Shown one piece after another: positions 11,469 through 48,876 of a stretch of 53,501 nucleotides of DNA (positions are counted from its first letter, which is position 1; the number at the start of each line of letters is the position of its first letter). A program made the translations under genes and the position numbers. The notes beneath the pieces are model-generated. The model worked only from the letters and a program-made list of their open reading frames with translations, made no database searches and was not told the DNA's origin. Source of the stretch: Chloroflexota bacterium (GTDB lineage: Bacteria; Chloroflexota; Dehalococcoidia; Bin125). The stretch lies in contig JAPPFB010000012.1 of NCBI GenBank assembly GCA_028875225.1, positions 175,244 through 228,744 of the forward strand, given 5' to 3'.

Positions 11469-11558
11469 TGGCGGAGAGGGTGGGATTCGAACCCACGAGG
11501 GCCTTGCAGCCCTACACGCTTTCCAGGCGTGCCTGATCGTCCACTCCAGCACCTCTCC
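11469..11558 (-). tRNA. tRNA-Ser (GGA anticodon)
   Basis: On the minus strand the gene begins GGAGAGGTGC. The anticodon loop CTGGAAA (anticodon GGA), a long class-II variable arm, the T-arm GTGGGTTCGAATCCCAC, acceptor CCTCTCC, discriminator G and an encoded CCA (11469-11471) are all visible. Length is 90 nt including CCA. GGA reads UCC/UCU serine codons. Confidence 0.95.
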
Positions 11559-11582
11559 GGAGGGGATGGCCGATTTGCAAAC

Positions 11583-11674
11583 TGGCGGAGAGGGTGGGAT
11601 TCGAACCCACGAGGCACGTCGCCGCACCTACCGATTTTCGAGATCGGCTCCTTCGGCCACTCGGACACCTCTCC
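11583..11674 (-). tRNA. tRNA-Ser (CGA anticodon)
   Basis: The minus-strand gene begins GGAGAGGTGTCCGAGTGGCC. The anticodon loop CTCGAAA (anticodon CGA) is followed by a long variable arm, the same T-arm and acceptor as its neighbour, discriminator G and an encoded CCA (11583-11585). Length is 92 nt. It reads UCG serine codons. It lies 24 bp upstream of tRNA-Ser(GGA) on the same strand, so the pair is probably one transcript. Confidence 0.95.
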
Positions 11675-46434: not shown

Positions 46435-47529
46435 TCAGCCGGCTGCCACCGCATCGGAAATCAGGCTACCGAGCGCTTCGGTGCTGAGCGGCTCGTCGCT
46501 GTCCCCGGCGAGGTCGGCGGAGCGATGGCCTGCCGCCAACGTGCTGGTTACGGCCAACTCGATCGCCGTCGCTTCGGCTTCGAGCCCCAGCGAGTAGCGC
46601 AGCATCAGCGCCGCGCTCAGGATCATCGCCATCGGGTTGGCGATGCCCTGTCCGGCGATGTCCGGCGCGGTGCCGTGAATCGGCTCGTAGAGCCCCAGCG
46701 TCGAGCCGTCCTCCGAAGCGCCCAGGGAGGCGGAGGGCAGCATGCCCATTGAACCGGCGAGCATAGATGCTTCATCCGTGAGGATGTCGCCAAACATGTT
46801 CTCGGTCACGATCACGTCGAAGTAGGCCGGATGGCGAATCAGGTCCATCGCGCAGGCGTCGACGAGCCGGTGTTCAAGGGTCACGTCCGGATAGTCCTTT
46901 GCCACCTCGTCGGCAATCTCGCGCCACATGCGGGATGTGTCGAGAATGTTGGCCTTGTCGACGGACGTCAGTAGCCCACGGCGGCCTCGGGCGGTCTCAA
47001 ACCCGAGACGAACGATCCGCTCGACTTCCTCCTCGGAGTAGGCGAGGGTGTCGACGGCCTTGCGCTGGCCATCTTCTTCCCAGCGGCGCTGCGGCTCGCC
47101 GAAGTAAATGCCGCCGGTCAGTTCGCGCAGCACGACCATATCGACGGCTTCTACGGTTTCCCGCTTCAGCGGGGTGGCGTCGGCGAGGATCGGCAGCATC
47201 TTGACCGGGCGGATGTTGGCGAACAGCCCGAGTCCCTTGCGCAGGCCAAGGATTGCCTGTTCGGGCCGGACCAAGGCCTTCGGATCGTCCCACTTCGGCC
47301 CGCCGACGGCGCCGAAGAGTACGGCGTCCTGGGCCTGGCACATCGCCAGCGTTTCGTCGCGCAGAGCGACTCCGTACGCATCGATCGACGCGCCTCCGAC
47401 CAGGTCTTCGTTGTACTCAAAGGAGTGATCGAAGCGGCCGCCCACGGCGTCGAGCACACGGACTGCCTGCCCGATGACTTCGCCGCCGATGCCGTCGCCG
47501 GGCAAGAGTGCAATCCTGAAATGGGCCAT
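46435..47529 (-). CDS. leuB: 3-isopropylmalate dehydrogenase
   Basis: Protein of 364 aa, full length. LLPGDGIGGEV starts the chain, followed by VDKANILDTSRMWR and the signature NMFGDILTDEASMLAGSMGMLPSAS (conserved Asp residues for Mg and isopropylmalate). It oxidises and decarboxylates 3-isopropylmalate with NAD. It starts 12 bp after the end of the second TGA-extended small ORF. Confidence 0.96.
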   Translation of the reverse strand: MAHFRIALLPGDGIGGEVIGQAVRVLDAVGGRFDHSFEYNEDLVGGASIDAYGVALRDETLAMCQAQDAVLFGAVGGPKWDDPKALVRPEQAILGLRKGLGLFANIRPVKMLPILADATPLKRETVEAVDMVVLRELTGGIYFGEPQRRWEEDGQRKAVDTLAYSEEEVERIVRLGFETARGRRGLLTSVDKANILDTSRMWREIADEVAKDYPDVTLEHRLVDACAMDLIRHPAYFDVIVTENMFGDILTDEASMLAGSMGMLPSASLGASEDGSTLGLYEPIHGTAPDIAGQGIANPMAMILSAALMLRYSLGLEAEATAIELAVTSTLAAGHRSADLAGDSDEPLSTEALGSLISDAVAAG

Positions 47530-47541
47530 ACGTGTTGGTTC

Positions 47542-47748
47542 CTAGTCGTCGGTTGGGCGCTCACCCGGAGCGCGTTCGGGGGAGACTCAACAGCCCGGCG
47601 CTCCGTAGTCGCCGCAGCAGGTCTGTCGCTCCGTCAGCCTATTCCACCAAATGGCAAGTACACCGGTGACCAGGCCCAGGCCTTCACGACCGTCGGCGCG
47701 AAGATTGCCAATCGCGTCCCGGAACGAGGGTGTCGGGGGCTTACACAT
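47542..47748 (-). CDS. Candidate small selenoprotein, copy B (CCGDYGAPGC-TGA)
   Basis: ORF of 53 codons to TGA (47587-47589), ending TCCGDYGAPGC, then 14 more in-frame codons (VSPERAPGERPTDD) to TAG at 47542. AGAGGG lies five bases before the ATG. The stretch after TGA matches the paralogue at 47853-48107 at VSxERA..ER, and a 17-nt hairpin sits at the same distance. The codon after TGA is GTC and the tail has no ATG, GTG or TTG, so it can be translated only by reading TGA as an amino acid. If TGA is a stop, the product is the 53-aa peptide (47587-47748). Function unknown; a thiol/selenol metal or redox centre is conceivable. Confidence 0.6.
47557..47573 (-). promoter_or_regulatory. SECIS-like hairpin after TGA, copy B
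   Basis: In the mRNA, GCGCTC-cgggt-GAGCGC begins 14 nt after the TGA. It has a 6-bp stem and a 5-nt loop with G at the second position. UGA-to-loop distance is 19 nt, within the range known for bacterial SECIS elements. Stem and distance are the same as in copy A, while the loop sequence differs. Confidence 0.5.
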
Positions 47749-47852
47749 CAGATCCCTCTCAGTCGCTGCTACTCAACCGCGGAAGTCTGAGATCTCTGAG
47801 CCTTCATCGCAGCCTATCTTCAGCGCTCACGGCAGTAGCGCCGACCACTGAG

Positions 47853-48107
47853 TTAGTGATGGTCATGTCCGTGGCCATGATCGTGGCTGTGGTGATGGTC
47901 ATGGTCTTCAGACTCCATGCGCTCGGCCCGAGCGCGCTCTCCGGACACTCAACAGCCCGGGTCACCGTAGTTGCCGCAGCAGTTGTCGACGTTCCGCAAC
48001 TTGATCAGGTTGTTCTTGATCAAGCCGTAGATCGCATGACGCCTGCCGATCGACCGGCGCAGGTTGGTGATAGTGTCACCGATGGTCGGCCGTGGATGTT
48101 CAGGCAT
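47853..48107 (-). CDS. Candidate small selenoprotein, copy A, with His-rich tail (CCGNYGDPGC-TGA)
   Basis: ORF of 52 codons to TGA (47949-47951), ending NCCGNYGDPGC, then 31 more in-frame codons to TAA at 47853: VSGERARAER, then a tail with 11 His in 21 residues (MESEDHDHHHSHDHGHGHDH plus H). The N-terminal part (RRHAIYGLIKNNLIKLRNVD) is basic and helical and only weakly similar to copy B, yet the residues flanking the TGA match. With TGA as selenocysteine the product is 84 aa. Alternatives: two peptides, the second starting at GTG 47948 or ATG 47918 by reinitiation. The His-rich tail suggests metal binding. Confidence 0.6.
47919..47935 (-). promoter_or_regulatory. SECIS-like hairpin after TGA, copy A
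   Basis: In the mRNA, GCGCTC-gggcc-GAGCGC begins 14 nt after the TGA, with the loop starting GG. It can also close one extra G-C pair. It has the same stem, length (17 nt) and position as the copy B hairpin. Confidence 0.5.
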
Positions 48108-48285: not shown

Positions 48286-48876
48286 CTAGACCGTTACCGG
48301 CTTGGTCGCGGGACGGTTGGATTCGTAATCCGAGATCAGGTCGTCGTGCTCAAGAGTCAGCGAGATGTCGTCGAGGCCGTTGAGCAGGCAGTGCTTGACG
48401 AACGGAGCGATATCGAATGATCGCACCCAGCCGCCCGGCGCGCTGACGGTCTGCTCCTCGAGACTGACCGTGATCGGTGTGTTCGACTCCGACTCGACCA
48501 TGCGCATCAGTTCTTCAACGTCGGGCTGTGGCAGCTGGATCGTGAGCAGGCCCATCTTGGCCGAGTTGTTGCGGAAAATGTCGGCGAAACCTGGCGCGAT
48601 GACCGCCCTGACGCCCATGCCCTGGATCGCCCAGACCGCGTGCTCGCGCGACGAGCCGCAGCCAAAGTTTGGTCCGGCAAGCAGCACGCTGGCGCCCTGG
48701 TATAGAGGTTGGTTCGTGACGAAGTCCGGATCCTTGGCCCAGGCCTCGAAGGCGAACGGTCCGTAGCCTGTGCGCTCGATCCGCTTGAGGTACTTCGCCG
48801 GAATGATCTGGTCGGTGTCGACATCGGCGCGGTCAAGCGGCAACCCGGTGCCGCTAAAGGTCGTGACGGGATCCAT
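48286..48876 (-). CDS. leuD: 3-isopropylmalate dehydratase small subunit
   Basis: Protein of 196 aa with the aconitase swivel domain. DVDTDQIIPAKYLKR near the N-terminus and LLAGPNFGCGSSREHAVWA are diagnostic. It pairs with LeuC to isomerise isopropylmalate. It is first of leuD-small A-small B-leuB on the minus strand, while leuC is near 30 kb on the plus strand. Downstream, 48108-48285 holds no gene I can support. Confidence 0.95.
   Translation of the reverse strand: MDPVTTFSGTGLPLDRADVDTDQIIPAKYLKRIERTGYGPFAFEAWAKDPDFVTNQPLYQGASVLLAGPNFGCGSSREHAVWAIQGMGVRAVIAPGFADIFRNNSAKMGLLTIQLPQPDVEELMRMVESESNTPITVSLEEQTVSAPGGWVRSFDIAPFVKHCLLNGLDDISLTLEHDDLISDYESNRPATKPVTV

Follow-up and report, generated by a model that had tools for sequence, protein, structure and literature searches.

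Two tandem genes interrupted by TGA lie between leuD and leuB

Two short ORFs on the minus strand, copies A and B, lie between leuD and leuB in the window (the whole stretch of 53,501 nucleotides of Chloroflexota DNA that was analysed; Table 1). Automatic ORF calling stops both genes at a TGA, past which each frame continues. Copy B encodes MPEHPRPTIGDTITNLRRSIGRRHAIYGLIKNNLIKLRNVDNCCGNYGDPGC-TGA-VSGERARAERMESEDHDHHHSHDHGHGHDHH, with CCGNYGDPGC-U-VSGERARAERMESEDHDHHHSHDHGHGHDHH as the context of the putative selenocysteine (Sec), and its frame runs on to a His-rich end (...EDHDHHHSHDHGHGHDHH); copy A encodes MCKPPTPSFRDAIGNLRADGREGLGLVTGVLAIWWNRLTERQTCCGDYGAPGC-TGA-VSPERAPGERPTDD, with the context CCGDYGAPGC-U-VSPERAPGERPTDD. 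The pattern that a first-pass annotation had read here, CCG[N/D]YG[D/A]PGC-TGA-VS[G/P]ERA[R/P][A/G]ER, is matched exactly by both ORFs, and the codon pattern CC-G-[N/H].. is found once in the window, where 0 occurrences are expected. Orthologues of copy B were found at L023, L069 and L071.

Each TGA is followed, from nucleotide 14 onwards, by the 17-nt hairpin that had been described, with an identical 6-bp stem (GCGCTC-(5 nt)-GAGCGC). The accompanying claim that G fills both first loop positions holds for copy B (GGGCC) and fails for copy A (CGGGT), in which only position 2 is G; the copy A loop still satisfies the SECIS rule despite the C at its first position. Copy B had also been said to lack a start codon after the TGA, which is wrong: it has GTG at 47948, directly after the TGA, and ATG at 47918, whereas no start codon follows in copy A. 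The selenoprotein conclusion reached below is unaffected by either correction.

Table 1 Features of the leuD–leuB region of the window
Feature	Position	Strand	Details or basis
Predicted selenoprotein gene, copy B	47853..48107	-	84 residues, Sec = residue 53, stop TAA
Start and stop codons, copy B	ATG at 48107, TGA 47951-47949, TAA 47855-47853	-	ORF reading
Putative Sec-encoding TGA, copy B	47949..47951	-	TGA/Cys tally among homologues
Predicted bSECIS hairpin, copy B	47919..47935	-	GCGCTC-GGGCC-GAGCGC, loop start nt 20 after TGA
Predicted selenoprotein gene, copy A	47542..47748	-	68 residues, Sec = residue 54, stop TAG
Start and stop codons, copy A	ATG at 47748, TGA 47589-47587, TAG 47544-47542	-	ORF reading
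Putative Sec-encoding TGA, copy A	47587..47589	-	TGA/Cys tally among homologues
Predicted bSECIS hairpin, copy A	47557..47573	-	GCGCTC-CGGGT-GAGCGC
leuD, isopropylmalate isomerase small subunit	48286..48876	-	Upstream of copy B; adjacency conserved elsewhere
leuB, isopropylmalate dehydrogenase	46435..47529	-	Starts 12 bp past copy A; Pfam Iso_dh E 4.7e-133

Only TGA and cysteine codons follow the motif in homologues

The family proved much larger than the two copies in the window. A protein search across the phylum (301 genomes) yielded the first relatives, which mostly align across a TGA. A contig scan with the codon pattern CCG[NHD]xGxPGC, in which the following codon was unconstrained, returned at least 118 stretches; with the loci from phylum searches, these give a homologue set of at least 144 members that conform to CCGxxG[EDQA]PGC, a few of which are the same species reached twice. 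Among the 144 matches listed, the codon after the motif is TGA in 137 (Sec forms, 95%), TGT in 4 and TGC in 3, and TAA, TAG or any other codon follows CCGxxGxPGC in none. The invariance of C, C, G, G, P, G and C in the 144 members is by construction, since the pattern fixes these residues; profile matches that escape the pattern, CCDHPGEPGCU and CCGHPREPGCU, retain CC and PGC-U.

Members occur in at least six phyla (Chloroflexota, Actinomycetota, Desulfobacterota, Nitrospirota, Armatimonadota and Gemmatimonadota, as read from record titles), those of Actinomycetota falling in Coriobacteriia, Acidimicrobiia and Thermoleophilia. Upstream of the motif the consensus is approximately P-S-x-x-x-F-F-x-N-L-x-x-P-M-P-L-x-x-K-L-x-L-L-x-R-N-N-W-I-K-I. 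Homologues that end at PGC with unrelated sequence beyond had been named as grounds for refuting a Sec reading; instead, TGA or Cys stands at the site, and extensions past it are conserved within subfamilies (for example, U-MTKDEARAAGLI). Of the 301 Chloroflexota genomes, 40 contained the family in a profile search at E <= 1e-8: the TGA form in 37 (4 of them judged by stop count alone) and the Cys form in 3. At E <= 1e-6, among genomes around L096 (Acidimicrobiia), 37 of 246 carried it, as did 25 of the 247 around L060 (from a desulfobacterial MAG), and almost every match contained a TGA; these two group names, like that of Chloroflexota for the window, rest on record titles of related loci.

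These counts bear on a simple alternative, in which the TGA acts as an ordinary stop, giving a short Cys protein with PGC at its C terminus, and a recent duplication accounts for the similarity downstream. Automatic ORF calling does end the genes there, and copies A and B are tandem paralogues. An ordinary stop should, however, appear as TAA or TAG in some homologues, and none does so among the matches listed, against 137 with TGA from several phyla. It also leaves unexplained that Cys substitutes for TGA mainly in genomes without selA, that the downstream codons are under purifying selection and that the hairpin fits the bSECIS model. Judged by the codon tally, this alternative is refuted in practice, and we give it next to no credence.

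Several loci carry more than one copy: tandem pairs were seen in L090, L054 (367-932) and L068 (4652-5236), and L071:1190-2733 holds three tandem copies, the third of the type CCGRYGDPGCU-TGPPDAQDERP. At L137:5050-5205 the TGA is followed at once by TAG, and Sec would be the final residue if decoded. Two candidates were set aside: a member on a viral contig, which was a single chance match to the pattern without family context, and fusion to a partner domain, because the long frames seen upstream resemble the ORFs that arise by chance in GC-rich DNA.

The TGA form goes with selenocysteine machinery

The sel genes, whose absence would have refuted the first-pass annotation, are all present in the genome that carries the window. 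Both selA (520 bits) and selB (324 bits, a full-length 622-aa gene) score above cut-off, a tRNA-Sec has the anticodon TCA, and selD (L011:1501-2442, G000:C23) has a TGA in frame at its catalytic position (ARCGG-U-GSKFGPEGL). UxxK is the motif listed for Sec-containing SelD (PMC13188914), and SelD is probably itself a selenoprotein here. Because selA, selB, tRNA-Sec and a selD with an in-frame TGA are found together, the genome very probably makes selenoproteins. Elsewhere in the window (11469-11674), tandem tRNA-Ser genes (GGA, CGA) both match the tRNA-Sec model weakly, as expected for long-arm tRNAs.

Among the family genomes examined, selA accompanies the TGA form in 73 of 77. It was found in 37/37 TGA-form Chloroflexota, compared with 244/301 of all Chloroflexota searched (hypergeometric p = 2e-4), and in 36/40 TGA-form genomes of other phyla; Cys-form genomes have it in only 2 of 7 cases (TGA versus Cys form, Fisher p = 8e-5). 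Neither p-value is corrected for relatedness of the genomes. Four TGA-form assemblies lack selA; selB is present in two of these, and neither gene was detected in the other two (G301 and G315), which probably reflects incomplete assembly. Cys occupies the UGA position in 7 of the 144 homologues among the matches listed, and selA is missing from the genomes of five of them. One Cys-form member, L034:1522-1668 (G162), whose genome still has both selA and selB, retains a SECIS-like hairpin, apparently marking a recent Sec-to-Cys change.

Hairpins and codon constraint downstream of the TGA

The bSECIS model has a stem of 4–16 bp, a loop of 3–9 nt, a spacing of 16–37 nt and MFE <= -7.5, and requires G in the first two loop positions (PMC13188914). 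Both copies fit it, with a 6-bp stem and a 5-nt loop located at nt 20, and MFE values of -13.8 and -9.9 over 40 nt. Against shuffled sequences the window's own two sites are unremarkable (z of -0.25 and +0.48) because the window DNA is GC-rich, and an Rfam scan of the region gave no match. The family carries the stronger signal. Counting stems of at least 5 bp with the loop starting at nt 18–25, 83% of 127 distinct TGA members among the matches listed have the hairpin, compared with 15% (sd 3%) after shuffling, and 99% of the 105 hairpin-bearing members have G within the first two loop nucleotides. Mean folding z for the same 127 was -0.86 relative to dinucleotide shuffles (p = 2e-14). Column-wise covariation is weak because the hairpin position shifts by a few nucleotides, and hairpins were scored per sequence instead. 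Among the matches listed, 20 of 27 members that end within 4 codons of the TGA keep the hairpin, all or part of it lying past the final stop, and amino-acid coding is therefore not its cause; of the 7 Cys forms, only L034 has one.

Because the copies sit inside an amino-acid operon, the hairpin might instead be a regulatory element such as an attenuator, or the tail might arise from readthrough independent of SelB. Both ideas run against the hairpin, which keeps its position relative to the TGA and has G-first loops whatever the phylum or operon context, and against the association of the TGA form with selA; we regard them as extremely improbable.

Over the 11 codons after the TGA, pN/pS among window-clade orthologues (L022, L023, L069, L071 and L090) was 0.25 for copy A and 0.39 for copy B, and 0.68–3.96 in other frames. 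The changes are few and the hairpin itself constrains both kinds of site. The ratios are not near 1, the value that would have counted against continued coding, and on this sequence evidence purifying selection acts on the codons that follow the TGA.

Together, the sel genes, the TGA and Cys homologues and the low pN/pS support the proposal of the first-pass annotation that UGA encodes Sec in an uncatalogued family of small selenoproteins, to which we assign a probability of roughly 0.93. Comparative evidence gives strong support to the assignment of UGA to Sec; protein-level evidence of Sec is absent. Copies A and B would then be tandem genes of this family. The hairpin 14 nt downstream would recruit SelB with Sec-tRNA, UGA would be decoded as selenocysteine, and translation would go on for 14 more residues in copy A and 31 in copy B. 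In the predicted product, a short, basic helical stretch leads into CC-G-[HN]-x-G-[EDQA]-P-G-C-U.

Relation to known selenoproteins

The family is absent from the catalogues searched. Scanning 73 members against NCBIfam 20.0 and Pfam gave no meaningful match, known selenoprotein models included, and a PDB profile search found no relative; weak Pfam matches to ZrgA, Shisa_N and CCG were dismissed as coincidences of the His-rich stretch or the Cys motif. CCGxxGxPGCU does not occur among the motifs of a 119-family prokaryotic selenoprotein catalogue (May 2026), and no relevant paper quoting the motif was found in the literature searched, which does not exclude unpublished or non-open work.

What is new is the family; the decoding mechanism is standard. 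As in FdhF and SelD-type SECIS selenoproteins, there is an in-frame UGA, a hairpin 16–37 nt downstream whose small apical loop has G within its first two positions, and selABCD in the genome. Unlike the catalogued SECIS selenoproteins, to which it has no sequence relation, the family consists of Sec forms in 95% of members among the matches listed. Adjacent Cys-Sec is shared with KCU-star/DUF466 (NF033934), SaoC (NF040734), MbdU (NF045648) and other CU-motif selenoproteins, but no member matches their models at E <= 0.1. The hypothetical deep-Sep selenoproteins DG, DW and DF and the CC/Se motif family NF041239 are likewise predicted and without known function, but their catalogued motifs are different (GUxG, GxU, none and CxxU, respectively) and there is no profile match. 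The near lack of Cys homologues is unusual. According to the deep-Sep authors, who name one earlier case without Cys homologues (GrdA), their homology filter may discard such selenoproteins, which would explain why this family is missing from catalogues.

If the reading is right, a widespread family is added to the about 119 catalogued in prokaryotes, in phyla (Chloroflexota, Actinomycetota, Desulfobacterota and Nitrospirota) where the use of selenium is partly unexplored. It would also supply a reason for these lineages to retain the Sec machinery, correct many truncated gene calls and make a compact CC...CU protein available for redox chemistry.

Gene neighbourhood and possible functions

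From its sequence the product is inferred to be a helical protein of 50–100 residues with a Cys-Cys...Cys-Sec redox or metal site; an AlphaFold model is of low confidence (pLDDT 62) and contains helices only. The gene neighbourhood is variable, and function is therefore poorly constrained.

Flavoproteins are one recurrent neighbour. Clustering identified a pyridine-nucleotide disulfide oxidoreductase at 8 loci (Chloroflexota, Coriobacteriia and other Actinomycetota), in each case adjacent to the selenoprotein gene; most members, including those of the window, have none nearby. By active-site pattern, 6 adjacent ORFs and 0 non-adjacent ORFs are CxxxxC flavin disulfide reductases (p = 3e-4). Examples adjoin the selenoprotein gene at L027:1702-3150, L056:1738-3360, L080:1735-3141 and L115:6647-7999. 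The four flavoproteins scanned fall below every NCBIfam equivalog cut-off, the best models being DLD, GR, MerA and FAD-oxidoreductase, and may form a subfamily without assignment. Members beside flavoproteins can end PGCUR (L080 and L115, for example) or PGCUM.

The role that we favour, tentatively, is that of a thiol/selenol electron shuttle; electron transfer is inferred and has not been shown. The CU pair would form a reversible selenenylsulfide with the upstream CC as partner dithiol, and in several lineages the neighbouring glutathione-reductase-like flavoprotein could reduce the CU protein. High-Mr thioredoxin reductase of the mammalian type carries a C-terminal GCUG tail, and the shuttle would resemble such a tail detached. 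The likeness lies in Cys-Sec at or near the C terminus (as in L080 and L115) and in a gene beside a GR/DLD-like flavoprotein with GGTCxxxGC, whereas here the CU protein stands alone with a CC pair of its own, has no interaction shown and has a flavoprotein neighbour only in some lineages. A bolder version, which we consider unlikely as a whole, takes this as a major, almost Sec-obligate family (~10–15% of sampled genomes in three phyla) that catalogues missed because it is tiny, has its site at the gene end and has few Cys homologues, and that provides a stand-alone Cys-Sec tail acting in trans as a shuttle for GR-like flavoproteins.

Metal binding is the main rival to the shuttle, possible though on the unlikely side: the same selenoprotein would use CC...CU mainly as a soft-metal or chalcogen site (Hg, Cu, Zn or selenide). 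Four thiol/selenol ligands lie within eleven residues, MerA-like flavoproteins adjoin some copies, and 29 of 132 members among the matches listed, window copy B included, have tails with at least 3 His, which suggest metal binding in some members (about a fifth). Most members, however, lack His-rich tails, and the survey of neighbours revealed no recurrent metal transporter or regulator next to family genes.

The leu genes raise a third, improbable role for the selenoprotein, in which it would serve one particular pathway, for instance by protecting the Fe-S enzyme isopropylmalate isomerase or helping to assemble it. Upstream of the family gene, leuD is found in 9–10 loci; in the window clade it immediately precedes the gene, and it overlaps the gene by -1 or -4 bp in L082, L129, L138 and L141, and leuB follows just downstream in six loci (L022, L069, L090, L134, L138 and L067). 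In other lineages the place of the leu genes is taken by his genes, photolyase, pyruvate kinase, TspO or flavoproteins, so the leu link is lineage-specific. A photolyase gene is near the selenoprotein gene at L120, L143, L161 and L166 (Nitrospirota, Dehalococcoidia and Syntrophobacterales), and genes for TspO, heliorhodopsin and DUF523/DUF1722 occur nearby once or twice; these neighbours hint at a light or oxidative-stress setting.
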